Source: Oceaniglobus roseus (GTDB lineage: Bacteria > Pseudomonadota > Alphaproteobacteria > Rhodobacterales > Rhodobacteraceae). Taken from it: 53,570 nucleotides of DNA. A program made the position numbers and the translations under genes. The notes under the pieces are model-generated. The model did no database searches. It was not told the DNA's origin and saw only the letters and a program-made list of their open reading frames with translations. The stretch covers positions 1 through 53,570 of the forward strand of contig NZ_PNOS01000035.1 of assembly GCF_002869745.1 (NCBI RefSeq). Direction: 5' to 3'. Positions within the stretch are counted from its first letter, which is position 1. Every line of letters starts with the position of its first letter. Shown piece by piece: positions 6,342-26,389 of this stretch.

Positions 6342-6785
6342 ATGACCGACCACCTTCGCCATGCCCTGATCATGCTCGCCTCGGGCATCGGTATCCCGCT
6401 GCTTGCCACGCTGAACGCCCAGCTTGGCGGGCGCATCGCCTCGCCCGTCGCGGCGGCCATCGTGCTGTTCTCGGTGGCGTTCCTCGCCTGCCTGCTGGTC
6501 GGCCTCGTCACCGGGCTCGGCGGGCTGGCGCGGCTGCCGGGGCAGCCCTTGCACCTGTTCGCCGGCGGGCTGTTCGTGGCCTTCTACGTCGTCTCCGTCA
6601 CCTTCATCGCGCCCAAGTTCGGTGTCGGCAACGCGATCTTCTTCGTGCTGATCGGCCAGCTGATCTCGGCCGCGGTGATCGACCAGTTCGGCCTGTTCGG
6701 CGCCCGCCAGCAAAGCCTGACGCTGGCCCGCGGGGCCGGGATCGCGCTGATGGGCCTCGGCGTGCTCCTGACCCAGAAGGTCTAG
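6342..6785 (+). CDS. DMT-type small permease (YdcZ/DUF606 family)
   Basis: 147 residues, almost entirely hydrophobic, with about five membrane segments; typical YdcZ/DUF606 features include GIPLLATLNAQLGGRIASP near the N-terminus and GNAIFFVLIGQLISAAVIDQFG later. Members of the family are small integral membrane proteins of the drug/metabolite transporter clan; substrate unknown. It starts 46 bases after the HExxH lipoprotein gene and may be cotranscribed. Its 3' end overlaps the convergent algL gene by four bases. Confidence 0.85.
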   Translation: MTDHLRHALIMLASGIGIPLLATLNAQLGGRIASPVAAAIVLFSVAFLACLLVGLVTGLGGLARLPGQPLHLFAGGLFVAFYVVSVTFIAPKFGVGNAIFFVLIGQLISAAVIDQFGLFGARQQSLTLARGAGIALMGLGVLLTQKV

Positions 6786-7816
6786 CGCAGGGGCCCCCAG
6801 ATCGCCGTCTGGTCGCCGCCCAGCTTGGAGTGGCTCAGCGGCCGCCAAGGCTCGGCCAGCCTGTCGAGGGCGGGATCGTCGTAGAGCGTCAGGTAAGCCT
6901 CGATCCAGGCGAGGTTGAAGCCCTCGATCTCGTCCGTGCCGTCGAAGAAGGTCTGCACCTCGCCGGTGATGGCGCGGGTCTTCTCGCCGGTGTCGAGGTC
7001 TGACACCGCGAAGCCGACGATGCGCTTCAGCGCCCCGTCGCATTCGCCGGTCAGGTCGAACCCCTGCCGCTTCAGCCGCGCCACGGTCACAACGAGCGGC
7101 GCGATGCTGTGCAGCTGGTAGTGGAGCGCGAAACGGCCGCGGCCCATCTCCTGCGGCAGGCTGCCGTCGGGCGCGGCCTTGCACATGACATAGACGGCGG
7201 ACCAGGCGGACCAGCCCTGGATGATCCTGTCGTCCGCCAGTTCGCCGATGGCGGCGGCGGCCAGTGCCGACCAGGCGCGCAGGTTGCCCTGCGCCGCGCC
7301 GTCGCCGGCCTCCTCCTCCCAGAACGCCATCTGCGCGCGCTGGCGGGTTCTCAGCCAGCCGCGGATGTCGTCGAGATCGCGGTAGAGCGTCGTGAAGGGC
7401 GCGACCTGGAGCGCGGCCAGCCCGAAGGCGGCGAGGCGTGAGCCGATGGTGAGGTTCGAGGTGGTCGAACGCAGGTCGCCCATGGCGTCCTCGCGCGCCC
7501 AGACCGCGATCCGCTTCACCACGCAGTCGGCCACCGCCTGCCGGTCCGAGTCCGGCAGGAACACGCGGTTCGCATCCGCGGTGAGGTCGCGCAGGAAGTC
7601 GTCGATCGGGTCCAGCGCCTCGTCCACCTCGGCATCGGCTTCCGCGTCGAGGGTCGAGGAGTTGCTGCCCTCGGCATAGCGGCTGCCGTAGGCGAGCGAG
7701 AACACCGGCTCGGGCGCCTCGGCGCAGGTGAAGTCCTCGGCCATGGCGGCGCCTCCGGAAAGCAGCAGAAGGCAGGCCGCGCGCGCGGCGTGGCGCAGGG
7801 GGGGCCGTCGGCTCAC
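6782..7816 (-). CDS. algL: AlgL-like alginate lyase homolog, catalytic residues apparently lost
   Basis: 344 residues, GTG start overlapping the algK stop (GTGA). N-terminal signal peptide ending near AAMAEDFTC. The helical (alpha/alpha toroid) alginate lyase family is indicated by YAEGSNSST near residue 48, the WSAW/WSAL helix region and the final ten-gene-operon position. In Pseudomonas AlgL (from memory) catalysis uses His in NNHSYW and Tyr in RALAYHNY; here the aligned segments read GNLRAW (L179 for His) and FALHYQLH (H236 for Tyr). Predicted to have no or altered lyase activity, perhaps a structural subunit of the periplasmic export machine. Confidence 0.72.
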   Translation of the reverse strand: MSRRPPLRHAARAACLLLLSGGAAMAEDFTCAEAPEPVFSLAYGSRYAEGSNSSTLDAEADAEVDEALDPIDDFLRDLTADANRVFLPDSDRQAVADCVVKRIAVWAREDAMGDLRSTTSNLTIGSRLAAFGLAALQVAPFTTLYRDLDDIRGWLRTRQRAQMAFWEEEAGDGAAQGNLRAWSALAAAAIGELADDRIIQGWSAWSAVYVMCKAAPDGSLPQEMGRGRFALHYQLHSIAPLVVTVARLKRQGFDLTGECDGALKRIVGFAVSDLDTGEKTRAITGEVQTFFDGTDEIEGFNLAWIEAYLTLYDDPALDRLAEPWRPLSHSKLGGDQTAIWGPLR

Positions 7817-10569
7817 TGGATCGCCCCCAGTCGCAGGAGGTTGGCCAGCCCCTCGGCCCGCGTCGCGCCAAGGCCCGCGGCGCGGTCGAGCCAGCCGAGC
7901 GCCTGACCCACGTCGCGCGGCACGCCGATGCCGTAGGCCAGGACGTGGCCGTACTCGGCCATCGCCTCGGCATTGCCCGCCTCCGCCGCCTCGCCCAGAA
8001 GCTGCGCCGAGGTGACGAGGTCGCCGGAGCTGCGGGCGGTGTCGCGCAGCATCAGCGCGAAGTCGACCTTCGCGGCCACGTCGCCGGCCGCGGCGGCCTG
8101 CTGGTAGAGCCCGTTCATGTCGATCCGCGCGTCGGCGATCTCGCGCACCGCGGCGGGGGCCCGGCGATAGGCCGCCAGCACGAAGCGCAGGGCCGCGTCG
8201 CTGCGGGTCTGCATCAGCGCGACAAGGTGGTTCGCCGCCTTCGCCGGATCGTAGGTCTGAAGGTCCGGGTCCGAGGTCAGGCGGTAGAGCTGGCGGTGCG
8301 CGTCGGCATCGCCCTCGTCGAGGTCGCGGGCATAGACATCGGCCGCCTGCGGCGCCGCGCCCCTGTCGAAGGCCGCCATCTGGCTGTCGGACAGGCGCAG
8401 CTTGGACAGCACGTTGCCCCCCTCGACCGCCAGCGCGACCCGGCGCCAGTGGTAGGACTGGTCGGGCGCGCTGCGGAGCGCCGCCGCCTCGCCCAGCTCG
8501 TCCACGTCCTTGGTGCCGCAGGTCATCAGCGACACCGCGCGGTCGACGTAATCCGCCGCCTTCTGGTTCGTGACGTAGGGCATGGCGAACATCAGCGCCA
8601 GGAAATCGCCACGGTCCTCGATCACCTGCGCATAATCCTCGTAGATCGCGCGGGGGTCGCGGGTCCGCGACTGGAGCCGGGCCTGGAGGCGGATCGCCGC
8701 CCCCTCGCCGCGTGCGCCCGCGCGCTTCAGCAGGGTCACGATCTCGTCCGCGACGGCGGGATCGCGGGCGTTGTCTTCGGTCAAGGCGATGGCAAGGTCC
8801 AGCGCCGTCGTCACCCCGTTGTTCAGGTAGACCCGGCGGAACAGCTCGACCGCAAGCGCGCGTTCCTGCGGGTTCGTCGCCAGCTCGAACTCGAGCTCGA
8901 CGAAGGCCTCCAGCGCCTGGTCCGAATTGTCGAGCCGGGCCGCCCAGAGCTCGCGGGACGAGGGCAGCGCGGCGGGATCGACCTGCTGGCGCTGCGCGAA
9001 CTGCGCCAGCGCCGCCACCCGGTTGTTGAGCGCCTGGGACTGGATCTGGCCCAGCACCTCGGGCTCCTTGAACGGGTCGAGGGCGACCAGGTCGGTGGCG
9101 CTGACGGTGACGTTGTCGTACTCGGTCGCACGGAAGTTGCGCGCCCAGGTCGCGGCCTCGCGAAGGCGCGGCGCGTCGGGGGCCTGGCAGCGGAACAGAC
9201 CGTCGAGCATCTGCATGGAGCTGGCCATGCCGTGACGCGACACGGTTTCGGCCAGGAGGTCGGCGGCACGGTTCAGCTGCGCCGGATCGTTGCGATACCG
9301 GATCAGCCGCCCGGCAAGGATCTGCATCCCCTCGGGATCGCCCCGGTGGGCGGCCTCTTCCAGCAGCGGCATCGCCTCGTCCTCGCCCCGCCAGCGGCCC
9401 TTGCGCACCAGGATCTCCTTGGCGAGCACGGTGAAGACGAAGCCGGGCGCGTTGTCGAAGGTGGTCAGCTCTCGCAGGTAGTCGAGGTAGACGCTGCTTT
9501 CGTCCGTGGTGTCGCCGTCGACGTTGACCGCAAGTTCCAGCATCGGCACCAGCGAGGGGCGCGTGCGGCCCTTGTCCTCGCTCAGGTTGAAGCCGAGGAT
9601 CCGGTTCAGCTCGGCGTCGTCCAGCCCGCCCGAGGCCTTCAGCTGCGCCACCTGCCGGTCGCTGACGGCGATCCCGCGCTGCACGGCAAGCTTCAGATAG
9701 CGGCGCAGCACCTCGTTGTCCTTCTCGGCCGCGTCGGCGCCCATCTGGTACTCGACCACCTTCCAGGCAGCCTCGGCGCCGCCCATGTCGGCGGCGAAGC
9801 GGCGCCACTGGTAGGCGATGGCGGGATTGGGCGAGACGACCTCGCCCGACTGGTACTCCCGCGCGATCCGCTCGGCCCTGGCGCAGACGCCGTGGTTCAG
9901 CTGCCCCAGCAGTCCGCCGAAGGCCATGGTCACGGTCAGCTCCAGCGGCGCCTCCCACTCGGTGATCGGCGTGCCCTGAAGTTCCAGCCGGGCGAGGGCG
10001 AGAAGCGCGTTGGCGTTGCCGCCGTAGGCCGCGTTGACGATCAGCGTGCGGGCATAGTCGGGATCGGCCTGCACGCCGGTGCCGCTCATGTAGTACTGCG
10101 CCAGCACCATCCGCTGGTTGTTGGTCAGCGCGTCGTCCATGGCGCGCAGCTGGGCGATCAGCCCCTTCTGGCGCAGCTCGTCCAGCCGTCCGGCATCGAC
10201 GTGCAGCGCGATCCGGTCCAGCATCTCGTCGCCGCCCTGGTATTCCTCGTCGATCTCGGCCCGGCGGGTGATCAGCGCCGAGATGAAGTCGAACCAGCGG
10301 TCCGCGTCCTCTGCCTGAAGGCGACGGATGTCGCGGCCGAGGTAGAGGATGCGTACCGTGTCGGTCAGCTGCTCCTGCCCCAGGTCGACGCCGGTGTCCT
10401 CCTCGCGGTCCTCGGCGGCGGCGGCGGCGCTGCAGACGTCCTGCGGCTCCAGCGTGGGCGGCAGGAAGGCCATGTCGAGGGTGCGCGCCTGAAGCGGCAC
10501 GGCGGCGAGACAGCCAAGAGCGAGGGTCGCGGCCAGGAGGCGGCGGGCGGAGGGCGTGCGGTACGGCAT
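7813..10569 (-). CDS. algK: AlgK-like Sel1/TPR scaffold protein, unusually long
   Basis: 918 residues, about twice Pseudomonas AlgK (about 475). Signal peptide at residues 1-28 (LLAATLALGCLAAVPLQA); there is a Cys in it but no clear lipobox, unlike Pseudomonas AlgK, which is an outer-membrane lipoprotein. Repeated helical pairs of Sel1 type: QYYMSGTGVQADPDYARTL, LLEEAAHRGDPEGMQILAG, LLGEAAEAGNAEAMAEYGHV, GIGVPRDVGQALGWLDRAA. Likely scaffolds the secretion complex in the periplasm. AAGG ribosome site 8 nt before the ATG, 4 nt after algX. Assigned to AlgK by repeats and operon context. Confidence 0.7.
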   Translation of the reverse strand: MPYRTPSARRLLAATLALGCLAAVPLQARTLDMAFLPPTLEPQDVCSAAAAAEDREEDTGVDLGQEQLTDTVRILYLGRDIRRLQAEDADRWFDFISALITRRAEIDEEYQGGDEMLDRIALHVDAGRLDELRQKGLIAQLRAMDDALTNNQRMVLAQYYMSGTGVQADPDYARTLIVNAAYGGNANALLALARLELQGTPITEWEAPLELTVTMAFGGLLGQLNHGVCARAERIAREYQSGEVVSPNPAIAYQWRRFAADMGGAEAAWKVVEYQMGADAAEKDNEVLRRYLKLAVQRGIAVSDRQVAQLKASGGLDDAELNRILGFNLSEDKGRTRPSLVPMLELAVNVDGDTTDESSVYLDYLRELTTFDNAPGFVFTVLAKEILVRKGRWRGEDEAMPLLEEAAHRGDPEGMQILAGRLIRYRNDPAQLNRAADLLAETVSRHGMASSMQMLDGLFRCQAPDAPRLREAATWARNFRATEYDNVTVSATDLVALDPFKEPEVLGQIQSQALNNRVAALAQFAQRQQVDPAALPSSRELWAARLDNSDQALEAFVELEFELATNPQERALAVELFRRVYLNNGVTTALDLAIALTEDNARDPAVADEIVTLLKRAGARGEGAAIRLQARLQSRTRDPRAIYEDYAQVIEDRGDFLALMFAMPYVTNQKAADYVDRAVSLMTCGTKDVDELGEAAALRSAPDQSYHWRRVALAVEGGNVLSKLRLSDSQMAAFDRGAAPQAADVYARDLDEGDADAHRQLYRLTSDPDLQTYDPAKAANHLVALMQTRSDAALRFVLAAYRRAPAAVREIADARIDMNGLYQQAAAAGDVAAKVDFALMLRDTARSSGDLVTSAQLLGEAAEAGNAEAMAEYGHVLAYGIGVPRDVGQALGWLDRAAGLGATRAEGLANLLRLGAIQ

Positions 10570-10573
10570 CGGT

Positions 10574-11902
10574 TCAGCCTTTCCCGGAATAGAAGCAGGC
10601 GGTGACCTGCGGCGCGGCGCCGAAACCGGCGGCCAGTTCGATGTCGACGGATTGCGCGCCGCTGTCCCAGAGCCCGCTCATCGGCATGTAGAAGCGGCCG
10701 GTCCGGATCTGGTCGGGGTCGCGCACCACGCTGCGGCTGCGCATCATGCCGTTGCGCGAGCGGAAGGTGAAACGCGCCTCGGCACTGTCGCTGCCGCCGG
10801 TGTCGAGCGCGAGGGTATAGTCCAGCATCGGGTCGAGCGCGTTCAGGTCCACCCGGATCTGGTTCGCCTGCCCGGTCGAGAACAGGTTCAGCGGCACGCG
10901 GCAGGTGTCGCCCGCCGCCGCGATCAGTTCGCGGAGGGGCTGGTCGCCGAAGGCGGCGAGGTTCGCCTCGACCGGCACTTCCCACACCAGCACCGAGGGA
11001 CGGGCCGAGCGGAAGGCGTCGGAGGTGAGGTAGGACGAGATCGCGGCGAAGGCCCCGCCCTCGGGCACGGCGTACTGCATCACCTCGAGCCCGGTGTATT
11101 CCGACAGGAAGCCCGCGAAGTTCACCGAGGGTTCGCCGGTATAGGCGGTGCCGACCACGGCGATGCGGGCGACGCCAAGCGTGGCGCCGGGGCCGAAGAT
11201 CGTCCCCTGCGGCTGCACCGCGAAGCCCTGGGCGCGGCTGGTCGTGTAGGCGGCGGTCTCGACCTTCGGCAGGCTCAGCACGCAGTCGCGCTGCAACTGC
11301 GCCCGCATCTTCGAGTCGATCTCGGTCACGCCGCCCGGGGTGCTGGCGAAGTTGCTCTTCCGCAGGCTCGCCGCCGCGGGGGCGGCGCCCAGGCGCTCGG
11401 CCACGGCATCGGCGGCCAGGCGTCCGCCCTCGGCGGTCCAGCGGTAATCGGCCCTGTGATAGGGCAGCGGCCCGCCCCTGGCCGACACCATCGCCCTGCG
11501 CACGTCGGCCGTGGCCACGCCCTTCGCCTCCAGCCGCTTCACGATGTCGGCGTAGAGCGTCGTGGCGAGATCCGGGTCGAAACCGAAATCCCAGGCCTCG
11601 GGCGGCAGGTAGCCGGGCATGGCAAGGCTCTTCGTCGGCACGGGCAGGTAGATCAGCTGCGTTCCGCGCTCGGCCAGGGCGTCGGAGAGTTCGGCCACGA
11701 GTTCGATGCTGCCGTCCGAGAAGGGGTGGAACATCTTCAGGTCGGGATCGACGCGGAAGAACACGCCCTCCCGCCCCTCGACCGCCTGCATCCCCTGCCG
11801 GGTCGCAAGGCCGCTGCACCCGAAGGCCGATTGCGCCTCGGCCCCCATGGCCCCGGCCAGCGAGATTGCCGCGGCCAGAAGGAATCCGCTCAGTCTTTTC
11901 AT
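10574..11902 (-). CDS. algX: AlgX-like alginate O-acetylation protein, catalytic Ser and His replaced
   Basis: 442 residues with signal peptide (residues 1-24). SGNH/GDSL-like N-terminal domain and a C-terminal jelly-roll region as in AlgX. Very recognisable stretch RIAVVGTAYTGEPSVNFAG then FLSEYTG and SYLTSDAFRSARPSVLVWE. Pseudomonas AlgX (from memory) has GTSxSG with the nucleophilic Ser and GDHHWTP with Asp/His; here they read GTAYTG (A253) and ADYRWTA (D152 kept, R154 for His). Predicted not to acetylate but possibly still to bind polymer. Start at 11902 behind AGAGG. Lies between an unknown periplasmic protein and algK. Confidence 0.85.
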   Translation of the reverse strand: MKRLSGFLLAAAISLAGAMGAEAQSAFGCSGLATRQGMQAVEGREGVFFRVDPDLKMFHPFSDGSIELVAELSDALAERGTQLIYLPVPTKSLAMPGYLPPEAWDFGFDPDLATTLYADIVKRLEAKGVATADVRRAMVSARGGPLPYHRADYRWTAEGGRLAADAVAERLGAAPAAASLRKSNFASTPGGVTEIDSKMRAQLQRDCVLSLPKVETAAYTTSRAQGFAVQPQGTIFGPGATLGVARIAVVGTAYTGEPSVNFAGFLSEYTGLEVMQYAVPEGGAFAAISSYLTSDAFRSARPSVLVWEVPVEANLAAFGDQPLRELIAAAGDTCRVPLNLFSTGQANQIRVDLNALDPMLDYTLALDTGGSDSAEARFTFRSRNGMMRSRSVVRDPDQIRTGRFYMPMSGLWDSGAQSVDIELAAGFGAAPQVTACFYSGKG

Positions 11903-11934
11903 GCCTCTGCCCCCGTTCACGGTGCGTCGCGTCC

Positions 11935-12726
11935 TCAGTTCTTCACGGCGGCTCGTCCGGCCGTCTTGTCGTCGAGATAGGCCAGCAGGTTCTGCGCCGT
12001 CGTCTTCACCGCCAGCAGCTTCGACCCTTGCGCCCGCTCCAGGTACTCCCGCGCGCGTGCCAGGTCGGTCGGAGCGGCGGCATCGTCGCTCAGGATGTCC
12101 AGCGCGAGCCTCAGCTCGATCCGCCCGTTGCCCGATTTCGCCTGGTCGAGGATCCGCTGGCGCGTCGCCTCCGACAGCGCGCCGAACAGCTTGCCCTCGC
12201 CGTTGAACTCCACCACCGCGTCGAGCGCGGCCGAGTTCCCGGCCCAGGCATAGGGATAGAGCACCGAGATCAGGTGCTTCATCCGCGCCGCCGGTTCGGT
12301 CGCGGCATCCAGATGACCCATCGCCTCGATCATGTCCGGCAAGGCATAGGCGCGGCCGGTCGCCGCGGCGATGCCGTAGAAATATGCGAGGTCCGAGGCG
12401 TGCTTCGCCCGCCCCTGCTTCGCCAGCCGGTCGGCATAGCGCTTCGCCGCCATCCCGTCCCAACGTTCGGCCAGGGCGCGCAGGTCCTCGTCGCTCAGCC
12501 GCTCGCCCGCGTTCATCCGCTGCCGCGCGCCGCGCAGGGCGTCGGTCGGCAGCTCGCGGGTGGCGGTCACGCCCGCGCGCACCACGACCGAGATGGCGCG
12601 CGACTCGGCGTCGTCCGAGATCACCATCGGGATCGACCCGGCCGCAAGCGGCGCCGCCAGGGCGGCGGCCAGGGCCAGGCCGAGAGCGAGGTGCCGCGCG
12701 CGGCGAAGGGATCCGCCGCGCGTCAT
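11935..12726 (-). CDS. secreted alpha-helical protein of the alginate operon, unknown
   Basis: 263 residues; its ATG overlaps the algG stop (ATGA), so it is translationally coupled. Signal peptide at residues 5-30 (LALGLALAAALAAPLAAG). The rest is predicted helical, rich in Ala and charged residues, with TPR/Sel1-like spacing (YAWAGNSAALDAVVEFNGEG, ARAREYLERAQGSKLLA). No counterpart in the Pseudomonas operon that I recognise at this position. Probably a periplasmic partner of AlgG, AlgX or AlgK. No function can be read from motifs. Confidence 0.75.
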   Translation of the reverse strand: MTRGGSLRRARHLALGLALAAALAAPLAAGSIPMVISDDAESRAISVVVRAGVTATRELPTDALRGARQRMNAGERLSDEDLRALAERWDGMAAKRYADRLAKQGRAKHASDLAYFYGIAAATGRAYALPDMIEAMGHLDAATEPAARMKHLISVLYPYAWAGNSAALDAVVEFNGEGKLFGALSEATRQRILDQAKSGNGRIELRLALDILSDDAAAPTDLARAREYLERAQGSKLLAVKTTAQNLLAYLDDKTAGRAAVKN

Positions 12727-14261
12727 TTCCGGCAGTCCTCGGGACGGTCGGCCGAGCCCGCCGGAGCGGGCGTCGCGCCGAGCGCGGTGAGGGTGACGGC
12801 CTTCTCGCCCGCAAGATCCCCGGCGATGAAGGCGCTCTGGCGCGACAGGTCGCCGCCGAGAAAGCGCGGGTACTGCTGCGTGAAATCGTTCTTCGCCAGC
12901 ACCAGGCTGGCCCCCGTGGCGGTGGACAGGCCCGCGCGGTTGGCGCTCAGGACGTTGCCCTTCAGCCAGGTCTCGCTGTCGTCCTGCTGGGCCGAGACCC
13001 AGATTCCCGCGCTCTGGTTGGCGACGACGCGGTTGTCGGCGACGACGGTGCCGCGGCTGTCGCGCACCTCGATCCCCTTGTGGCGGTTGTCGAGCACGAG
13101 GTTGCCGAGGATCCGGCCGCAGTCCGACCCGGCCACGGTGATCCCGCCGCCTTCGCGCCGCCAGACGATGTTGCCCGCGACCAGCGCGTTGTGGCTGTGG
13201 CGCCGTACCGCGATCCCGGTTTTCTCGCCGCCAAGGACGACATTGCCCGAGACCACCGCATCGCGGGACCGGGACAGCACCTGGATCGCGTTGAACTCGG
13301 TCTTGCCGTAGAAGATGTTGGACAGGATCCGCGGTTCGCGGGCGCCGCTGACGACCAGCGCGGGGCCGCGGGCGGCGCGGAACTTGTTGTTCTCCACGGC
13401 GACGCCATCGAGCCCCGACAACGCGACCGACACCAGCCCGTCGAACAGGCTGTCGCGGACGAAGGATGCGCGGCGCACCACCATCATGTTGTTGCGCATC
13501 ACCGAGAAGCCGCCGAACTTCAGCGTCTTGCCGAAGCCGAGGCCGGTGAACCGCGCGTGGTCGACCTGCACGGTGCCGCTGGCGGCGGTGGTGACGAAGG
13601 GCGCGAAACGGCCGGTGACGGTGTTCGCCCCGCCCACCGACTCCACGCTGCCGCCGGCGATGGCGAGGTGGCCGAAGTTGATCAGGAAGGCGCCGTCGGG
13701 ACGGCTGAGGCGCAGCGTCTCGCCCGGCCCGATCTGGAGCGCGGCGCCGTCCCACACGACGACCGGCACCCGCAGCACGAAGCCGCCGTTGTCGGCCTCG
13801 GCGGGTTGCAGGCGGTATTGGCGGGTCAGAAGCTCGATATCCGACAGCCGCGCGGTCCCCCGGCGGATCACCAGCGCCCGGAGCTCGGGATCGCGCTGCG
13901 CGTTCAGCACGCCCTGGTTGTCGGTCGCCCCGGCCGTCTGGGTCAGCATGGTCAGCGCCAGCCGCACGTCGAGACCCTGCGCCTCGAGCGGATCGGAAGT
14001 GTGATCGCCCGCCATTGGCATCGCCAGCGGTCCGGGTTGCACCGCGGGGGCAAAGCCGTCGAGGCCCGCCGCGCGCAGCAGGTCGAGGTTCGCCACCACG
14101 GCGTTCGCCGGGGCGACGAGGCTCTCCTCCAGCCCCTCCAGCGCCGAGCGCAGCCCCGCATCCGGCAGGTCCGGCGCGGCGGAGGCCCCCGCCGCGGCCA
14201 GAAGCCCCAGCGCAAGCCCCGCCCCGCCGCGGCGCAGCCGGTGCCACAGTCCGTCACGCAT
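12723..14261 (-). CDS. algG: AlgG-like mannuronan C5-epimerase homolog without the DPHD motif
   Basis: 512 residues, signal peptide residues 1-28. The C-terminal two thirds are a right-handed parallel beta-helix with repeated asparagine ladders (VVSGNVVLGGEKTG, LVAGNIVWRREGGG, ILGNLVLDNRHKGIEVRD, VVADNRVVANQSAGIW). This matches periplasmic AlgG, which epimerises mannuronate to guluronate. The catalytic DPHD motif of known AlgG (from memory) occurs nowhere in this protein; the aligned region (about residues 300-330) has SGAREPRILS and FNAIQVLSRS. Likely inactive as an epimerase; a structural/protective role is still possible. Overlaps algA by 8 bases. Confidence 0.85.
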   Translation of the reverse strand: MRDGLWHRLRRGGAGLALGLLAAAGASAAPDLPDAGLRSALEGLEESLVAPANAVVANLDLLRAAGLDGFAPAVQPGPLAMPMAGDHTSDPLEAQGLDVRLALTMLTQTAGATDNQGVLNAQRDPELRALVIRRGTARLSDIELLTRQYRLQPAEADNGGFVLRVPVVVWDGAALQIGPGETLRLSRPDGAFLINFGHLAIAGGSVESVGGANTVTGRFAPFVTTAASGTVQVDHARFTGLGFGKTLKFGGFSVMRNNMMVVRRASFVRDSLFDGLVSVALSGLDGVAVENNKFRAARGPALVVSGAREPRILSNIFYGKTEFNAIQVLSRSRDAVVSGNVVLGGEKTGIAVRRHSHNALVAGNIVWRREGGGITVAGSDCGRILGNLVLDNRHKGIEVRDSRGTVVADNRVVANQSAGIWVSAQQDDSETWLKGNVLSANRAGLSTATGASLVLAKNDFTQQYPRFLGGDLSRQSAFIAGDLAGEKAVTLTALGATPAPAGSADRPEDCRK

Positions 14262-15732
14262 GGCGCAGACCCGGGGTTTCGCTGTCCTTCAGCGTCGTCG
14301 CGCGGACGTGGGGCCGCGTGCTGGGGCGGGCGGCGCCGACCGGCACCGCGGTGATCGCCTCGGCCAGGCTGACCTCGGCGGCGAGGCTCAGCAACGCCAC
14401 CTCCACCGGCTCGTCGGTGCGGTTCGACAGGCGGCTGGCCGACTTCGGGTCGAGCAGACCGCGCTCTCCGGCCACCAGCGTGCTTTGCGCGGTCGCGTTT
14501 TCGACGTGCAGGCTGCCGCGGACGACGATCGCCTCGCGCGACGCGGTCGGCGCGATCTCCAGCACTGCGCCGGGGCGCAGGGTCAGCGTGGAAAGATTTA
14601 CGCCATTCTTATCGATCAGCTGCGCGTGATCGCCCCAGCTGTTGTGGCTGCCGCGGTGCTTCTCCGCCTCGGCGCGCTTGGCGGCCTTCAGGTGCTCGGC
14701 CACCTTCTTGACGTTCTGGCAATGGCCGACCTTCGTGACGAGCAGCGCGTCGGGGGTGTCGATGATGATGACGTCGGACATGCCCACGACCGAAACCAGC
14801 CTCGTGTCCGAACGGACCATGGAGTTCGACGTCTCGACCGCGATCACGTCGCCCTGGAGCACGTTGCCCTTGGTGTCGGGCTTCGAGATCGAGTACATCG
14901 CCGACCAGCTGCCGACATCGTTCCAGCTGACGTCCAGCGGCGCGAGCGCGATGCGGCGGGTCTTCTCGAACACCACCTGTTCGGTCGGCAGGCTTTCGGC
15001 GTGGCGGAAGCAGTCGGGGTTCAGAAGCAGGCCGCGGCCGTCGTCCGCGCCGGTTTCCAGCGCCTGCTGCACGGCGACGAAGCTGCCGGGATCGAACCGC
15101 TGGTATTCCTCGATGATCGTCGCGGCCGAGAACATCGAGATGCCCGAGGCCCAGTAGGCGATGTCGCTTTCCACCAGCAGGCGGGCCTTCCGGACCGGCG
15201 GCTTCTCGACGAAGCGCTCGACCTTGCGGAGGCCGGGATAGTCGGCGATCGGGCCGCCGTCGGTGATGTAGCCGAAGCCGGTCTCGGCATAGCGCGGCTT
15301 GATCCCGTAGGTGACGATGTAGCCGTCCGAGGCCGCGCCGCGCATGGCGAGGATGGTGGTGTTGATGTCGCCCTCGATCACGTGATCGGCGGGGATCACC
15401 AGCATCAGCGCCTTCGGATCGCGGGCATAGAGCGTCAGCGCGGCGGCCAGCACGGCGGGGCCGGTGTTGCGCCCCATGGGTTCGTAGATCAGTTCGGCGT
15501 CGGTGCCGAGCTGGGCGAGCTGCGCCGCGACCGTGTTCCTCTGGCCCACGGAGGCGACGATCACCGGCGTCTCGAACCCTTCTCCCGAGTGCCGCTGCAC
15601 CGCGGTCTGGAAGAACGTCAGGGAATCCTCGCCGCCGATCCGCTGGAACTGCTTGGGCGACTGGGTCCGCGACATGGGCCACAGACGGGTACCGTTGCCG
15701 CCGCAAATGATGAGGGGATGAATGTTGGTCAC
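14254..15732 (-). CDS. algA: AlgA-like mannose-1-phosphate guanylyltransferase; isomerase half degenerate
   Basis: 492 residues from GTG 15732 (AGG 7 nt upstream; GTGA overlap with alg44). N-terminal nucleotidyltransferase domain complete: GGNGTRLWPMSRTQSPKQF at residues 11-29, and FVEKPP. It should make GDP-mannose for AlgD. The C-terminal cupin (about residues 365-450) corresponds to the phosphomannose isomerase half of bifunctional AlgA, but the metal-binding histidine cluster (HHHRAEHW in Pseudomonas, from memory) is replaced by APTASREAIVV. Mannose-6-phosphate would have to come from another isomerase. Cytoplasmic. Confidence 0.92.
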   Translation of the reverse strand: MTNIHPLIICGGNGTRLWPMSRTQSPKQFQRIGGEDSLTFFQTAVQRHSGEGFETPVIVASVGQRNTVAAQLAQLGTDAELIYEPMGRNTGPAVLAAALTLYARDPKALMLVIPADHVIEGDINTTILAMRGAASDGYIVTYGIKPRYAETGFGYITDGGPIADYPGLRKVERFVEKPPVRKARLLVESDIAYWASGISMFSAATIIEEYQRFDPGSFVAVQQALETGADDGRGLLLNPDCFRHAESLPTEQVVFEKTRRIALAPLDVSWNDVGSWSAMYSISKPDTKGNVLQGDVIAVETSNSMVRSDTRLVSVVGMSDVIIIDTPDALLVTKVGHCQNVKKVAEHLKAAKRAEAEKHRGSHNSWGDHAQLIDKNGVNLSTLTLRPGAVLEIAPTASREAIVVRGSLHVENATAQSTLVAGERGLLDPKSASRLSNRTDEPVEVALLSLAAEVSLAEAITAVPVGAARPSTRPHVRATTLKDSETPGLRHA

Positions 15733-16808
15733 GACTCTGCCTTTCTGGCAAACAGCGAGCCCCCGAAGATCGACTTCGACAGGCGGACGCGGGCCGGTTT
15801 CCCGATGTCTCCGGGGGTGAGGGCGCCGTCTTCCGCACGCAGCACGACGGGCAGGTAGAGGTCACCGTTCTGGGCGGCGTCGTCGGTGGCGGAGGTCAGC
15901 ACGACATCCACCGGGACCGAACGACCGTCGCCCAGATCCAGCCAGACCTGCTCGCCGTTCATGGCCTTGGTCAACCCTTCGATGCTCATCTGGGATTGAA
16001 CTCTGACCTGGACGCTAGAGTCGAAAAAGGTCAGAATTGGGTCGCTGGGAAGAACAGTTGCGCCCTCATAGATCCCGTCCGCCAGGGTTACGTCACAATC
16101 GCAGGGCAGCACGAAATTCAGCGTGTCGCCGCTGTTCGAGCTGATGGCATAGACCACCTGCCCGGCCCGTGCCCGGGGGTTCAGCATCGAGATCTGGCCG
16201 GGGCTCGTCGCCTGCATCTCCTTGCCCTCGCGGGTGATGAAGACGGGACGCGCCTCGTAGCTCTGGGTATAGCGCAGGCGCAGCGCGTTCAGGGCGACGG
16301 CGATCAGCACCACCGACAGCACGATCGCCCCGATTCGCCGGATCATGTCCGCGCGGTCGTTCCTGCCGCCGGCCTTGACCTTGGACGGCTTCGGCTTGAC
16401 CGGGCCGGTATAGGCCATCATCGCGCCGAGCGACACGAAGTCGCCCGCGATGAAGCTGTTCAGGATATAGCGCAGCTGCGGCAGGTGCGGCCCTGTCGGG
16501 TCGATGAACTGGAGCTTCAGGTCGTTCGTGTGGAGCCCCGTGAGGCGCGCCTCGGGGAACAGGTCGATGCTGAAGCCCTCGAAGTTGAACTCGAGCTTGA
16601 TGATGTGGCGGCTGCCCTCGAAGCCGGGGTCGATGGGCCCGGGCGCAATGACGTGGGCCGCGGTCAGCGAAAGGCCCGTGCCCTGGAACACCTGGTCCCC
16701 GACCTGGGCGGTGAAGGGCACAGGAAGCACCGGATGCTCGGTCTCGAACACGAAGTCCGAGGCGATCTCGGCGTCTTCCTGGGCTGCGATGTCAATCTGC
16801 TTGTTCAT
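15729..16808 (-). CDS. alg44: Alg44-like co-polymerase, PilZ signature lost
   Basis: 359 residues. N-terminal PilZ-like domain (residues about 18-125) ending in LPQLRYILNSFIAGDFVSLG, very like the Alg44 segment after PilZ. One membrane segment at about 157-178 (RIGAIVLSVVLIAVALNALR) then a periplasmic adaptor-like domain with LPCDCDVTLADGIYEG. Partner of Alg8 in polymerisation and export. In Pseudomonas, c-di-GMP binding needs arginines near residue 20 and D-x-S; here the region reads FETEHPVLPVP and GLSLTA (G45-L-S47), with no arginines and D replaced by G. AGGAG ribosome site 6 nt before the ATG. Confidence 0.87.
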   Translation of the reverse strand: MNKQIDIAAQEDAEIASDFVFETEHPVLPVPFTAQVGDQVFQGTGLSLTAAHVIAPGPIDPGFEGSRHIIKLEFNFEGFSIDLFPEARLTGLHTNDLKLQFIDPTGPHLPQLRYILNSFIAGDFVSLGAMMAYTGPVKPKPSKVKAGGRNDRADMIRRIGAIVLSVVLIAVALNALRLRYTQSYEARPVFITREGKEMQATSPGQISMLNPRARAGQVVYAISSNSGDTLNFVLPCDCDVTLADGIYEGATVLPSDPILTFFDSSVQVRVQSQMSIEGLTKAMNGEQVWLDLGDGRSVPVDVVLTSATDDAAQNGDLYLPVVLRAEDGALTPGDIGKPARVRLSKSIFGGSLFARKAES

Positions 16809-16833
16809 TCAAAACTCCTAAGTCCGCGGCCCC

Positions 16834-18309
16834 TCAGACCTTGGTGAGAAACATGACGGCAAGTGTCAGCCAGATGACGGCAAGCACGTGGTGAACGGCG
16901 GATTCCCGTGCCCGGAGCCGGTCGGCAAGGGCGACCTGGGCCTTCTCGGCCGAGGTCTGTCGGGTCCATTTCTGCTTGTCGAGGCGGAACAGGACGAAGG
17001 TCTTCGTCGCCGCTCCGGCGATCTGGCCGAAATACAGGATGGGCGGGTGCGTCACCGGGAACCAGGTTCCCCGGAACAGCGAGATGATGACGCAGAAGAT
17101 ATAGCGGGTGGACAGCACCCAGGCGGCATAGAGCGGGATCACCTCCCACGAATGCAGCAGGGCGGCGAGGATCACGGTGATCGGCCCGACGAGGGTCGTC
17201 CACATCGACAGCCGCTGGTCGAGGATCGACCACCAGGTGAAGAAGCCGATCTCCCTCGGCGGGATCTTCAGGGCCCGGCCGTTGGTCCGCATCATGTTGC
17301 CGAACCAGCGGGTCATCAGCACCTGGCTGCTGTCGAGGAACCCGGGACGCGGCTGGGTCTCGTAGGACCAGGAACGCACGTCGGGCAGGTACGACATCTC
17401 GTAGCCGTTCTTCAGCAGCCAGTACCAGGTGGACTTGTCGTCGCCGGTCAGGAACTTCACCGTGCCGAGGCGCCAGTGTTCGAGATAGTCGTCGCGCACC
17501 TGCTCGATGAAGCCGGGATCGCAGGCGAGGTTGGCGCGGAACACCGACATCCGCCCGGTCAGCGTCAGCACCCGGTTGCCGAGGCCCATGGAGCACATCA
17601 TCACCTGGCGCTGGTTGAAGCGCAGCACGAACCAGTCGCGGAACAGGTTCTTCTTGTCCAGCATCACCCCTTCGTCGGTGGTCAGCGCGCCGACCTTCGG
17701 GTCCATGAACATCGGCGCCGACTGGGTGGCGATGTCGAGCGGCACCATCGTGTCGCCGTCGACGAACACCAGGATGTCGCGGTGGGTGGGGTTGCAGCGG
17801 CCGATGATCTCGAGCGTGCGGGCCAGCGCGTCGCGCTTGCCGTTCGCCTTGATCCGGTCGATCACCAGCTTCACCTGGCTCATGTCCACCGGCATCGTGT
17901 CGTAGATGTGCTGGATCAGCCGCGCGTCGGCCCCGTCCACCACCGACGACACGATGGTCGCGCCGTCGGGGTTCCTTGCCGCCGCCGTGAACACCGAACG
18001 GTAGACCGGCAGCGTGACCTCGGGTTCCACCATGTAGGAGGTGACGAGGAAATAGGCGTGGCTCTTGCGGCCCTCGGCGGCAAAGGCCCGCCGAAGGCGC
18101 CGTTTCCTCGCGGGGTACACGACACGGCGGAAGTAGAGGGCACGCGCGAAGTTGAGCGTGGCCCAGGAATATCTCCACATTCCCAGGAAGCCGACAATGA
18201 AGATCGAGTTCGTTGCCCCATCGAGGGAGCCCAGGAACCCCGGAGGAACCGTGGTGGCCAGGAGAACGACGACCGCAAAGTAGGCTGTGTGTGTCAGTAC
18301 CTGCAGCAC
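16834..18309 (-). CDS. alg8: Alg8 glycosyltransferase, mannuronan polymerase subunit
   Basis: 491 residues, GTG start. Family-2 glycosyltransferase embedded in the inner membrane, joining GDP-mannuronate units. Hydrophobic segments at the N-terminus and at about residues 370-430 and 470-490 flank a cytoplasmic catalytic domain with FVDGDTMVP, VLTLTGRMSVFRA, LEHWRLGTVKFLTGDDKS and ILYFGQIAGAATK. These blocks match Pseudomonas Alg8 closely (recollection), including the end FFRLDxQxWTRQ (here LFRLDKQKWTRQ). Length also equals the family norm. Follows algD by 16 bases. Confidence 0.95.
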   Translation of the reverse strand: MLQVLTHTAYFAVVVLLATTVPPGFLGSLDGATNSIFIVGFLGMWRYSWATLNFARALYFRRVVYPARKRRLRRAFAAEGRKSHAYFLVTSYMVEPEVTLPVYRSVFTAAARNPDGATIVSSVVDGADARLIQHIYDTMPVDMSQVKLVIDRIKANGKRDALARTLEIIGRCNPTHRDILVFVDGDTMVPLDIATQSAPMFMDPKVGALTTDEGVMLDKKNLFRDWFVLRFNQRQVMMCSMGLGNRVLTLTGRMSVFRANLACDPGFIEQVRDDYLEHWRLGTVKFLTGDDKSTWYWLLKNGYEMSYLPDVRSWSYETQPRPGFLDSSQVLMTRWFGNMMRTNGRALKIPPREIGFFTWWSILDQRLSMWTTLVGPITVILAALLHSWEVIPLYAAWVLSTRYIFCVIISLFRGTWFPVTHPPILYFGQIAGAATKTFVLFRLDKQKWTRQTSAEKAQVALADRLRARESAVHHVLAVIWLTLAVMFLTKV

Positions 18310-18325
18310 AGCGTGTCCCGCCTTT

Positions 18326-19645
18326 CTACCAGCAGATGCCTTCGTAGTTCCCGCCCGAGACCAGCTTGCGGTTCATCCGCGTCAGGTCCAGGACGGGGCG
18401 CGACTGGGCGGCCTGCGACAGGCGATCCACGGTCTCGCCGTAGAAGTTGCCGACCAGCACCGCGCCGCTCTCGTCGATCAGCGCATCCAGGCTTTCGACC
18501 ATCCGCTCCTTCAGGTCGGGGATGACGTCGTTGCCCCGACCCGCGGTCGAGTTGTCGTTGGCATAGGCCTCGAACACGTAGGGGTCGTGGATCTTCACCT
18601 CGATCCCCTTGGCGATCAGGCGCGCGGCCAGTTCCGCCAGCGGGCTTTCCCGCAGGTCGTCGGTACCCGGCTTGAACGAGATGCCGACAAAGCCGACCTT
18701 CTGCGCGCCCGAGGCGGCGATCATGTTCTCGGCACGCTTGATCTGCGCCTCGTTCGCTTCCAGCACCGCGTTCAGCAGGTGCGCCGGGGTGTCCAGTTCC
18801 GCCGCGAGATGGCGCAGCGCGCGCACGTCCTTCGGCAGGCACGAGCCGCCGAAGGCGAAGCCCGGGCGCATGAAGTAGGACGAGATGTTCACCTTCTTGT
18901 CCGAGCAGAGGATCTCCATCACCGTCTGCCCGTCGAGGCCGGAGGCCTTGGCGATGTTGCCGATCTCGTTGGCGAAGGTCACTTTTACGGCGCGCCAGGT
19001 GTTCGAGGTGTATTTCACCATTTCCGCGGTGCGCAGGTCGACGACGTGGATCTTGCAGCCCAGGCCCTCGTTCAGCTCGGTCAGGATCCTGGTGGTATAG
19101 TCGTCCATGGCGCCGAAGACGATCAGGCCGGGATCGTAGTAATCCTCGATCGCGGTGCTCTCGCGGAGGAACTCGGGATAGTAGCCGACGCCGAAATCCT
19201 TGCCCGCGACCTTGCCCGACGCCTTCTCCAGCGTCGGGATGCAGGTGTTCTCGCAGGAGCCGGGAACGATTGTCGAGCGGATGACGACAGAGTGGTGCCC
19301 ATCCTTCTTCGCCAGCGCGCGGCCGATGTTCTCGCACACCGCGGTGACGTATTTCAGGCCGACCGACCCGTCGGGAGCCGAGGGCGTGCCGACCGCGATG
19401 AAGGACGCGTCGGTATTGTCGATGGCGTGCTGCACGTCATCGGTCGCGGTCAGCTTTCCGTCGGCGACGACCTGTGCGATCAGTTCGTCGAGACCGTTCT
19501 CGACGATCGGGGACAATCCCGAGTTGATCGCCTTGATCTTGCCCGGGTCGACGTCGACCGCAATGACCTCGTGACCGTCACGCGCCAGGCACGCCGCCGA
19601 AACGACACCAACGTACCCGATGCCGAAAACACTGATTTTCGCCAT
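18326..19645 (-). CDS. algD: GDP-mannose 6-dehydrogenase (AlgD)
   Basis: 439 residues. Oxidises GDP-mannose to GDP-mannuronate, the committed step of alginate synthesis. Rossmann NAD site at the start (ISVFGIGYVGVVSAACLARD); conserved VGTPS, YPEFLRESTAIEDY, and KVTFANEIGNIAKASGLDG. Active-site Cys in FGGSCLPKD (C269). C-terminal GTDDLRESPLAELA and the terminal GICW are AlgD hallmarks. GAGG lies 5 nt before the ATG. First gene of the operon, so its 5' region (19646-19981) should carry the operon promoter. Confidence 0.96.
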   Translation of the reverse strand: MAKISVFGIGYVGVVSAACLARDGHEVIAVDVDPGKIKAINSGLSPIVENGLDELIAQVVADGKLTATDDVQHAIDNTDASFIAVGTPSAPDGSVGLKYVTAVCENIGRALAKKDGHHSVVIRSTIVPGSCENTCIPTLEKASGKVAGKDFGVGYYPEFLRESTAIEDYYDPGLIVFGAMDDYTTRILTELNEGLGCKIHVVDLRTAEMVKYTSNTWRAVKVTFANEIGNIAKASGLDGQTVMEILCSDKKVNISSYFMRPGFAFGGSCLPKDVRALRHLAAELDTPAHLLNAVLEANEAQIKRAENMIAASGAQKVGFVGISFKPGTDDLRESPLAELAARLIAKGIEVKIHDPYVFEAYANDNSTAGRGNDVIPDLKERMVESLDALIDESGAVLVGNFYGETVDRLSQAAQSRPVLDLTRMNRKLVSGGNYEGICW

Positions 19646-19802
19646 ATCTGCCTCATCTATGTCTGCTCGTCACAGCTTTTGGCGCTGCTTTAAGTCTCCG
19701 TGCTAAGGCGCTGCATCTGTTGCGTAAACAATTTATCAACAAAGATGCGGTTTTCGCCCTGCTCGGTGGCCAATCAGCGACAGTCGGTTCCGTGAACAAG
19801 CC

Positions 19803-19814
19803 GTTAAGGTTAAC
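19803..19814. promoter_or_regulatory. short inverted repeat in the algD/lyase divergent region
   Basis: GTTAA-GG-TTAAC in the 336 bases between divergent algD and the lyase gene. The same interval holds AT-rich DNA near algD (TTGATAAATTGTTTACG on the minus strand at about 19723-19739) and a TTGACA hexamer on the plus strand at 19927-19932. No well matched -10 element is seen at the right distance, so I do not assign promoters. Candidate operator only. Confidence 0.25.
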
Positions 19815-19981
19815 TCCGTGGTCAGCGTGATAGAGGGCGGGCAAGGCGGAAGATTGCCTCAATTGCGGCGTTTATCAGATCATTTTACGAAAACTGTTTC
19901 TCGTCGCGCGTCCGGCGGATCGGTCGTTGACAAGACCGGGCGGCCTCCGCGACTAAGGACGAAACAATCATACGGGCCGCC

Positions 19982-20899
19982 ATGACAAGCACCAGACACC
20001 GCGTCGTCGCCATACTCTGCAGTCTGACCCTGCTCGCGGGGTGCGTGGGCGACGGGCTCTGGAAAGGTCCCGACAACGGCCCCATTCCCCGCGGCACCGA
20101 ACTGCTGTTCAGTCCCGCCCCCCACGCCTTCCGCCGCGCCACCGCCCCCGAGCCCGTGCGCCGGGGCGAGCGGAGCGAGCGGTTCGAGCTCAGGAACGGC
20201 GATTGCGGCGGCAGCGACTGCGGCAACCCCCGCTACCGGGCCGAACTGCGCAACGTCTCCGACGACGCCCGCATCGGTCAGGACATCTGGTACGGCTGGA
20301 GCTTCCTGAACCAGAACGTCCCGAGCTTCAGCGAGGATAGCGCGCTGCGGAACGTCTTCGGCCAGTGGAAGGTCAGCGGCGACGCGCGCGCGGCGATCCG
20401 GCTGATCCAGATGGGCCGTGGCGCGGGCAACTGGCGCGGCTGCGATCCGACGGTCTGCCGCCAGACCAACGACACCGCCTCCGACCTGGTGATCCAGCTC
20501 GACGACATGGCGAACGCGAAGGGCTGGGGCGACCGCCAGAACGACGGGCACATCTGCAGGCTGTTCTCGCTGGAGCAGACGAAGGGCCGCTGGATGGACA
20601 TCGTGCTGAACACGAACTTCGGCGCCGGGCCCGACGGCTATCTGAACGTCTGGGTCAATGGCGAACAGAAATGCGCCTATCGCGGCCAGATCGTCGCCAC
20701 CGCGGATCCGGGCCTTAAAGCGGTGCCGAACTTCCGCCACGGGATCTTTGCCAGCTACACCGAACGCTGGGATTCGACCCGCGGCGCCGCGCCGAAGCCG
20801 ACCATGGTCGTCTATTACGACGAGATCCTGTCGGGAAGGACCCGCGGCGACGTCGACACCCGCCTGCGCGAGATGTCCGGCCTGCCGCCGAAGGACTGA
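19982..20899 (+). CDS. putative polysaccharide lyase lipoprotein (heparin-lyase-I-like fold)
   Basis: 305 residues. Lipoprotein signal with lipobox LAGC (residues 18-21). Jelly-roll features of the Polysacc_lyase group: ERFELRNGDCG, RYRAELR, DIWYGWSFLNQNVPSF, FGQWKVSG, WMDIVLNTNFG, GYLNVWVNGE, and the closing NFRHGIFASY ... VVYYDEIL. Several Cys pairs suggest disulfides. Divergent from algD, so it probably acts on the polymer made by that operon, in the periplasm or at the outer membrane. The ribosome site is weak and the start is taken as the first ATG giving a full signal. Family assignment is from pattern, not search. Confidence 0.65.
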   Translation: MTSTRHRVVAILCSLTLLAGCVGDGLWKGPDNGPIPRGTELLFSPAPHAFRRATAPEPVRRGERSERFELRNGDCGGSDCGNPRYRAELRNVSDDARIGQDIWYGWSFLNQNVPSFSEDSALRNVFGQWKVSGDARAAIRLIQMGRGAGNWRGCDPTVCRQTNDTASDLVIQLDDMANAKGWGDRQNDGHICRLFSLEQTKGRWMDIVLNTNFGAGPDGYLNVWVNGEQKCAYRGQIVATADPGLKAVPNFRHGIFASYTERWDSTRGAAPKPTMVVYYDEILSGRTRGDVDTRLREMSGLPPKD

Positions 20900-20904
20900 G
20901 CGCG

Positions 20905-21587
<683 letters not shown>

Positions 21588-21591
<4 letters not shown>

Positions 21592-22337
21592 CCCTCCTCC
21601 CCCAGGTAGGCGCGGCGGACGGCGGGGTCGGCGCGGATCTCGGCCACGGTGCCGGTGGCGATGATCGCGCCCTCGACCAGCACGCTGATCCGGTCGGCCA
21701 GCGCGAAGACCGCGTCCATGTCGTGCTCGACCAGCAGGATCGGCGCCTCGTGGCGCAGCCCGTCGAGCAGGGCGCGCAGCGACAACGCCGCCTCACCGTC
21801 CAGACCGGCCATCGGCTCGTCCATCACGAAGACCCGGGGCGCGAGGGTCAGGGCGACGGCGATCTCGAGCAGCCGCCGCTGCCCGTGGGACAGGCTGCCC
21901 GCGCGCTGCCCGGCGCATTCGCCCAGCCCGACGCGCGCCAGCGCCGCCTCGGCCGTATCGCGCAGCCGCCCCCGCGCCAGGGCCCGGCCGAAGGGAGAGG
22001 GCGCCCTGCCCCGCGCCCCGAGCGCGCCGAGGATCGCGTTCTGCAGCACCGTGTCCTCCATCGCCAGCGCCGAGACCTGGAAGGTCCGCCCCAGCCCCAG
22101 GCGGGCCCGCGCCGCGACGCCAAGGGCGCTGACGTCGCGCCCGGCCAGCCGGACTTCCCCCGCGTCGGGCCGGAGGCTGCCCGCAAGCTGCGCGATCAGG
22201 GTGGACTTCCCCGCCCCGTTCGGCCCGATCAGCGCGTGGATCTCGCCCGCCCGCAGGTCGAGCGACACGTCGCGGCTGGCCTCAAGCGCGCCGAACCGCT
22301 TGGTCAGGCCCCGGGCCGAAAGGATCGCCTCAGCCAT
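21588..22337 (-). CDS. livG: branched-chain amino acid ABC transporter ATPase, LivG type
   Basis: 249 residues from the ATG at 22337 (GGAGAGG 4 nt upstream); a longer frame lacks support. Walker A GPNGAGKST, signature LSHGQRRLLEIA (a His in place of the second Ser/Gly position), Walker B VFVMDEPMAGLD, and a LivG-like FQVSALAMEDTVLQN. Overlaps livM and livF. Substrate class inferred from family. Confidence 0.92.
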
Positions 22338-24227: not shown

Positions 24228-24403
24228 GGGTTGGACGACCTCAAGGAGTGCCGGGGGGATCCGCGATGATCTGCAAGGCTCGGACCAAGACGGCGGGCGG
24301 GGGTTGTCCGGCGTCGTCGTCCCAAGGAACATCCGCGCCGCTGCGCTTCAAATCCGATGCCCGGGCGGTTAGGTCCGTCCGCAGAACTTCCGGAGGCCGC
24401 CCC

Positions 24404-24892: not shown

Positions 24893-24895
24893 GCC

Positions 24896-26035: not shown

Positions 26036-26179
26036 TCCGTGTCTCCCTGGTCCCGTTGTCCTGGCCCGCCTGGCGCGGCGCCTTGGCGCAAGGCTATCGG
26101 GCGGCATCGCGCCGGGCAAGCGCCGAGCGCCGCAGGGCGCAGGCCCGGGACGGGTGTGATGTGTCGAGGCCGGAGAGGA

Positions 26180-26253: not shown

Positions 26254-26389
26254 GCGCCATACGGGGTTAGGCGAACAGCGCATTTGGGTCAAGAGCGACC
26301 GGAGCACGCGCGGCAGAAGACTCTGCGGAACGCGTGTCCGGAAGGTGGATGACACCGGCTGTCGACGCCCAGACGGCAAGACGTACGCC

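Follow-up and report, generated by a model that had tools for sequence, protein, structure and literature searches.

The 53,570-nucleotide stretch of contig NZ_PNOS01000035.1 of Oceaniglobus roseus (hereafter the window) contains an operon of nine genes related to those for alginate biosynthesis in Pseudomonas. Our analyses give strong support to the view that it is a conserved, derived and non-modifying version of the alginate machine. A more specific reading, which we hold with middling confidence, is that it belongs to a conserved alphaproteobacterial family of synthase-dependent operons derived from alginate operons, which makes a beta-1,4-linked polyuronate other than alginate, probably glucuronan, exported unmodified in the lineage of the window. 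The odds on glucuronan itself are about even, polymannuronate being its chief rival.

Gene Content and Identity of the Operon

The nine genes lie on the minus strand, overlap or are separated by short gaps, have open reading frames throughout and follow the order AlgD-Alg8-Alg44-AlgA-AlgG-unknown-AlgX-AlgK-AlgL. Together with the region upstream, they are:

18326–19645, minus strand: AlgD-like GDP-sugar 6-dehydrogenase that retains the catalytic Cys but has Arg in place of His217 (P. aeruginosa numbering)
16834–18309, minus strand: Alg8-like GT2 polymer synthase with intact DGDT and GDDK motifs
15729–16808, minus strand: Alg44-like co-polymerase lacking the cyclic di-GMP (c-di-GMP) RxxxR site
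14254–15732, minus strand: AlgA-like sugar-1-phosphate guanylyltransferase lacking the isomerase motif; Asn contacting the mannose C2 hydroxyl replaced by Ala
12723–14261, minus strand: AlgG-like beta-helix protein lacking the DPHD epimerase motif
11935–12726, minus strand: all-helical repeat protein (Sel1/TPR-like), the unknown gene; N-terminal signal judged by eye
10574–11902, minus strand: AlgX-like SGNH protein; catalytic His replaced by Arg and Ser by Ala
7813–10569, minus strand: AlgK-like Sel1-repeat protein of 918 amino acids, weakly akin to Pseudomonas AlgK
6782–7816, minus strand: AlgL-like PL5 protein lacking His202, Arg249 and Tyr256
19646–19981: intergenic region between algD and the PF14099 gene; divergent promoters presumed from the layout
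19982–20899, plus strand: divergent PF14099 protein, nearest among solved structures to the glucuronan lyase TrGL; lipobox recognized by pattern

AlgD scores 420.9 bits against the GDP-mannose dehydrogenase of P. aeruginosa versus 260.7 against the best UDP-glucose enzyme. AlgA reaches 350.7 bits with the GMP_PMI model, just below the cut-off of 373 for the bifunctional enzyme, and its remnant isomerase match scores 17.6 bits. A genome search with PF01238 (PMI_typeI_C) was uninformative, matching in none of 26 genomes, Pseudomonas included, and TIGR01479 took its place. AlgX (148.8 bits with PF16822) and AlgL (57.8 bits with PF05426) also match AlgX and PL5 lyases, respectively, in the PDB, and AlgG matches AlgG there (E-value 2e-13), its 70.7 bits with NF038177 lying far below the cut-off of 700. 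Alg8 is a GT2 protein in the family search and Alg44 has no match in the Pfam search; both are named from homology to Pseudomonas-type operons, and the presence of the synthase and co-polymerase pair is supported by this homology, an Alg8 tree and the intact Alg8 motifs. The AlgK label relies on one Sel1 repeat and on position, Pseudomonas AlgK frames scoring only 27 bits with the profile of the clade defined below. The helical-repeat protein gave a confident model (predicted local distance difference test score [pLDDT] 89.6), with which a fold search returned no significant match. The first-pass annotation, made from the letters alone, had described nine tightly spaced alg-type genes here; its coordinates and identities were right, the AlgK label being the weak one, as was its statement that algE, algI, algJ and algF are absent from the operon. 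A tRNA-Ser called by ARAGORN at 7513–7588 (plus strand), antisense within algL, is short for its kind (76 bases) and probably a false positive.

Like the Pseudomonas-type operons used for comparison (L141–L144), the window joins in one operon homologs of AlgD, Alg8, Alg44, AlgA, AlgG, AlgX and AlgL, with a repeat protein taking the part of AlgK. It differs from them in gene order, in the absence of algE, I, J and F, in the added helical-repeat gene, in the loss of the epimerase, lyase, acetyltransferase, isomerase and c-di-GMP sites, and in the switch of the C2-hydroxyl contacts of AlgD and AlgA. A survey of "atypical" alginate operons describes losses of the algKE and algGXLIJF sets in environmental bacteria (PMC7112194); in the parts available to us it treats gene content, whereas the present case concerns active sites and sugar specificity in an alphaproteobacterial clade.

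A Conserved Alphaproteobacterial Clade

AlgG relatives were identified in 20 of 295 genomes of the family, O. roseus included, and the twenty regions around them were taken. Eleven have the layout of the window, and in nine algI and algJ lie between algG and the unknown gene; algF follows algX in eight of these nine, the last ending before that place. A scan with an Alg8 alignment yielded at least 571 relatives among 594 candidate stretches; the best 80, which were kept, include Rhodobacteraceae, Rhizobium, Agrobacterium, Devosia, Martelella and Roseibium. In the resulting Alg8 tree (98 rows, built by a quick method with support from the Shimodaira–Hasegawa-like approximate likelihood ratio test [SH-aLRT] only and no bootstrap), all 90 non-canonical alphaproteobacterial rows group in a single clade (SH-aLRT 100) among eight canonical rows. 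Duplicates (L045, L047, L056, L059, L070, L072, L082 and L083, and the short L123–L140) were left out of the counts below, as were L145 and L149, which hold a different AlgG/X/L cluster. L039 was removed because its apparent AlgX is AlgJ at a contig end. Most acetylating loci were taken only as far as AlgK, so AlgL counts include seven of them.

All nine genes are present in 28 of the 31 loci of the window's lineage, and the helical-repeat gene occurs in most loci of the clade, acetylating ones included. These acetylating "type II" relatives (for instance, Loktanella salsilacus L036/L072 and Rhizobium rosettiformans L091) share with the window the order of the common genes, the clade-wide site losses and the switched AlgD and AlgA residues. 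Unlike the window, they have algI, algJ, algF and the AlgX Asp-His-Ser site, often with a regulator just upstream, and unlike its lineage they have no PF14099 gene that we could find beside the operon.

Outside this comparison, L145 and L149 contain AlgG-, AlgL-, AlgX-, AlgF-, AlgJ- and AlgI-like genes, with no DPHD motif, the AlgX site kept and no Alg8 found in the stretch. In four alphaproteobacterial loci with a canonical AlgG DPHD motif (L118, L122, L146 and L148), no AlgX was detected within the fetched stretch.

Old and Recent Site Losses

The first-pass annotation had reported five sites missing by comparison with Pseudomonas, and alignments including L141–L144 confirm every one of them. 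It treated the losses as one set, however, and this did not hold. The survey of relatives it had proposed places four of the five across the clade: the changes in AlgG, AlgL, the AlgA isomerase and Alg44 are old and common to the acetylating relatives, and only the AlgX change follows the lineage of the window.

The DPHD motif of active AlgG epimerases is found in none of 86 clade frames, a few of them truncated, versus nine of nine canonical loci. The suggestion that catalytic residues had been displaced elsewhere was rejected, as no DPHD-like motif occurs anywhere in the 86 frames. Residues His202, Arg249 and Tyr256 of P. aeruginosa AlgL are described as belonging to the catalytic site of the PL5 lyase (PMC8829089); in the window they are replaced by Leu, Phe and His. 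Across the clade, position 202 is Leu in 38 of 38 loci, and position 256 is His in 34 of 37 readable loci and Tyr in three. The AlgA isomerase motif QMHHHRAEH is absent from the window and from all 85 clade frames. Alg44 of the window has no RxxxR, and both Arg are present in none of 90 clade rows, in a loose alignment. Epimerase, lyase and isomerase are thus presumably inactive, and the synthase may work independently of c-di-GMP.

AlgX behaves differently. In the window its His176 is Arg and its Ser269 Ala, so that the complete Asp-His-Ser site is missing along with AlgI, AlgJ and AlgF, the set by which alginate O-acetylation is recognized. AlgX is in view in 83 distinct loci. Of these, 33 lack algI, algJ and algF, and here the His is lost in 33/33 and the Ser in 31/33; the 50 with algI and algJ (49 also with algF, one cut off) keep the His in 50/50 and the Ser in 49/49 readable cases. 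L084, which seems to lack algF because its contig ends, is counted here with the algI and algJ loci and labeled algIJF-lacking in the tree. Apart from three Martelella rows, of which one has a long branch, the algIJF-lacking loci make up a single clade of Rhodobacteraceae (31 rows, 30 of them with AlgX in view; support 100). The Martelella rows join two Roseibium rows that keep algIJF and the AlgX site (support 93, below the tool's star). The joint loss of algIJF and of the AlgX site apparently happened twice independently, in the same direction, an observation for which we make no statistical claim.

In the O. roseus genome, a profile search returned a single PF16822 match, indicating that there is no AlgJ, and one distant MBOAT protein lies away from the operon (39% identity over 270 amino acids). 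Work on Pseudomonas reports that AlgX activity is required for acetylation and dispensable for secretion (PMC9734138), which fits an AlgX kept here in a structural role. A hint the other way is that catalytically dead AlgL (R249A, R249E or Y256F) is reported to harm P. aeruginosa cells during alginate production (PMC8829089); without a working AlgL, the machine would call for either some other lyase or a product that leaves the periplasm unclogged.

The altered sites might instead perform new chemistry on a new polymer, in AlgG, AlgL, AlgX and the PF14099 protein alike. The fixity of the AlgL replacements just described would suit this, as would the Glu or Asp found at the AlgX Ser position in 24 of the 33 algIJF-lacking loci. 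The residues at the AlgG DPHD site, however, vary widely, and the AlgX His is lost exactly where the acetyl donors are; we consider this explanation quite improbable.

Purifying Selection

Ratios of nonsynonymous to synonymous substitution rates (dN/dS) were estimated by the Nei–Gojobori method in nine pairs. They range from 0.07 to 0.47 for AlgG, 0.06 to 0.47 for AlgX, 0.05 to 0.42 for AlgL (eight pairs) and 0.02 to 0.17 for Alg8. Among all genes the highest value is 0.55; an AlgL value of 1.375 (L030/L054), for which the L054 gene is cut short by the contig end, was discarded. The accessory proteins change more quickly than the core, yet are under purifying selection.

The disappearance of several active sites could have suggested ongoing pseudogenization of an operon whose function was lost. 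With nine open frames in the window, no gene of the nine pairs reaching a dN/dS of 1 (the discarded AlgL aside) and a nine-gene set nearly always complete in the lineage, the chance of this is negligible, and local decay of the window operon is ruled out by its conservation and dN/dS. The first-pass annotation had likewise argued from the open frames that this was no simple pseudogenization. Its further proposal, an unmodified polymer with the accessory proteins kept as scaffolds, gains from the coincidence of the AlgX and algIJF losses and from the selection on AlgG, AlgX and AlgL; on polymannuronate as that polymer, these data decide neither way.

Sugar-Reading Residues of AlgD and AlgA

Mannose and glucose differ at C2 only. 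In P. aeruginosa AlgD, His217 lies 2.9 Å from the mannose 2-OH, and its position is called "clearly responsible" for specificity (PMC4794789). We found Arg there in 86 of 86 clade members, versus His in eight of eight canonical loci. In VTC1, Asn173 is reported to bind the mannose C2 hydroxyl (PMC9168903). We checked its position and numbering, and from our reading of the two motifs it is probably equivalent to the Asn of the bacterial WNSG motif, with which WASG of the window AlgA aligns. This Asn is Ala in 83 of 84 clade members (Ser in one) and is kept in 7/7 canonical loci and 12/12 housekeeping ManC copies. Both precursor enzymes therefore fit GDP-mannose families with their mannose C2-hydroxyl contacts replaced. 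This joint loss of both C2 readers is the strongest hint that the precursor may be a sugar other than mannose, although the switched residues alone do not name it. Two other AlgA changes, SID to PTE and M to F, were dropped as specificity switches, as a plant enzyme has Glu and Phe at the presumed positions (aligned by eye).

The first-pass annotation had called the polymer core functional. The catalytic residues of AlgD and the AlgA transferase and the Alg8 motifs are indeed kept, but not the C2 contacts, and the "mannuronate polymer" that it envisaged as another product becomes doubtful for the same clade-wide switch, since the sugar may not be mannuronate.

A polymer of a C2-modified uronic acid, such as a 2-acetamido uronate, would also explain a change at C2: replacing Asn by Ala enlarges the C2 pocket of AlgA, with a nearby Phe-to-Ser change, and Arg217 is the residue of the UDP-N-acetylmannosamine (UDP-ManNAc) dehydrogenase. 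Window AlgD, however, keeps PEFLRE, at two positions of which ManNAc dehydrogenases are described as having Arg and Pro (PMC4794789), and R. rosettiformans is described as making a glucuronic acid homopolymer (PMC10180729). We regard such a product as very unlikely.

A Possible Link to Glucuronan

Rhizobium rosettiformans W3, which is presumably the type strain and so one and the same as DSM26376, carries the acetylating operon L091, with the switched Ala in AlgA and Arg in AlgD. Strain DSM26376 makes a beta-1,4-glucuronan acetylated at O2/O3, a homopolymer of glucuronic acid, and according to the same 2023 report neither genes nor loci for making glucuronan were known (PMC10180729). Our search of open-licence papers found none tying an alginate-like operon to glucuronan. 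Two genomes were seen to have both operon types (L035 and L079); in each, algD and algA are missing from the acetylating copy, suggesting that both types may share one precursor (L040 begins at a contig end).

A second link is the PF14099 gene beside algD, which the first-pass annotation had overlooked. It adjoins the operon in 19 of the 31 loci of the window's lineage. In all but one of these 19 (18 loci) it lies on the opposite strand, and 12 of the 19 frames have a lipobox by pattern. Genome-wide, PF14099 is matched at an E-value of 2.5e-16 or better in 11 of 12 genomes of the lineage and more weakly in two of eight genomes with the acetylating operon only. The sole PDB sequence match of the profile is the Trichoderma glucuronan lyase TrGL (E-value 1e-6, over the C-terminal third). 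With the predicted model (pLDDT 82.9), the best Foldseek match is TrGL too (2ZZJ, E-value 1.3e-11, template-modeling scores 0.52/0.64), followed by heparinase I (1.6e-8) and, further down, another glucuronan lyase and many alginate lyases; the model thus has the PL20 glucuronan lyase fold. The protein differs from TrGL in being longer and in having six invariant cysteines.

PF14099 genes of six Rhizobium-group genomes were set aside as a lyase link, as they lie on other contigs than the operon and five look transfer-agent-linked by eye. The short PF14099 proteins of L194–L198 (Rhizobium group) adjoin what appear, by eye, to be gene-transfer-agent or phage tail genes.

Points Weighing against Glucuronan

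Several observations weigh against glucuronan or against the links just drawn. AlgD and AlgA are still members of GDP-mannose families; the O. roseus genome has a second, intact bifunctional ManC elsewhere (L177), making mannose precursors available; and where the UDP-ManNAc dehydrogenase has Arg at position 217, the UDP-glucose dehydrogenase is reported to have Leu (PMC4794789). The loss of the AlgA isomerase is not specific, as L118 and L122, with canonical AlgG, lack the motif too. The link to the producer is a co-occurrence in one strain, in which another synthase may be responsible. A mutant of Sinorhizobium meliloti reportedly makes glucuronan; no Sinorhizobium was among 14 plasmid records with an Alg8 relative, the S. 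meliloti chromosome lying outside that search. A Martelella operon, L114, is likewise without algD and algA, with no second operon seen, so that their absence need not mean a shared precursor.

The lyase link has its own weaknesses. The PF14099 gene is adjacent in none of 60 other clade loci, some stretches ending before its place. Within the lineage, genome G056 has no PF14099 match in a genome-wide search, and seven more genomes lack an adjacent copy, six having no PF14099 match at all and CCMM004 an unlinked one. Furthermore, of the TrGL residues given as catalytic, His53 and Tyr200 (PMC7601620), Tyr200 aligns well to Phe, and His53, probably replaced, aligns to Arg in a separate, very weak stretch (−2.1 bits). 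The PF14099 protein too may therefore only bind the polymer and perhaps cuts nothing.

Some of these points favor unmodified, unacetylated polymannuronate, the product that the first-pass annotation chiefly had in mind, made from GDP-mannose via GDP-mannuronate with the accessory proteins as scaffolds: the GDP-mannose dehydrogenase is the nearest relative of AlgD, the motifs of the AlgA transferase and Alg8 are intact, and ManC could supply GDP-mannose. The switched C2 contacts (AlgD 86/86, AlgA 83/84), the replacement of the AlgL mannuronate-lyase site by a largely fixed Leu/His pattern and the known glucuronan maker among the relatives argue the other way, and we hold this rival to be rather unlikely, though well ahead of the other rivals.

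Export, Regulation and Neighboring Genes

AlgE (PF13372) has no match in the O. roseus genome, and none was found in 19 of 20 clade genomes (O. roseus included) and 18 of 19 more, the two exceptions being weak and some genomes incomplete. The polymer would leave through an outer-membrane exit other than AlgE. Just upstream of the operon, a cluster from 47 loci, two of them of the window's lineage, is judged by eye to be a putative regulator of the LuxR type.

Beyond the PF14099 gene, 20905–26260 (minus strand) encodes a set of ABC transporter parts for branched-chain amino acids (a binding protein with two ATPases and two permeases), and a related ATPase cluster occurs near the operon in 26 loci. 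Beside acetylating operons, L034:811–2610 encodes a protein with CBM2 and polysaccharide lyase family 14 domains, and L089:5300–7372, upstream of the operon, an RTX-repeat protein, possibly a beta-helix enzyme, with related open reading frames in ten loci, none of the window's lineage.

Proposed Pathway and Significance

In the proposed mechanism, AlgA, acting as a transferase only, would convert hexose-1-phosphate into GDP-hexose, which AlgD would oxidize to GDP-uronate; Alg8 and Alg44 would polymerize and extrude the chain without c-di-GMP gating. A conduit through the periplasm would be built from AlgK, the helical-repeat protein, AlgX, AlgG and AlgL, those that were once enzymes now merely holding the chain, and the PF14099 protein would bind or trim the polymer. 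In its boldest form, a tentative proposal to which we give somewhat less than an even chance, the clade operons would be the missing glucuronan loci, re-tooled from mannose to glucose through the C2-hydroxyl residues of AlgA and AlgD, and in the stripped lineage of the window every modifying enzyme, the adjacent lyase included, would be a structural pseudoenzyme.

The retention of AlgX without its catalytic site after the acetylation genes have gone would separate its structural from its enzymatic role, in an experiment apparently run twice. The clade provides a sequenced, testable candidate locus for glucuronan, and it cautions that operons annotated as alginate operons by homology may make a different polymer.

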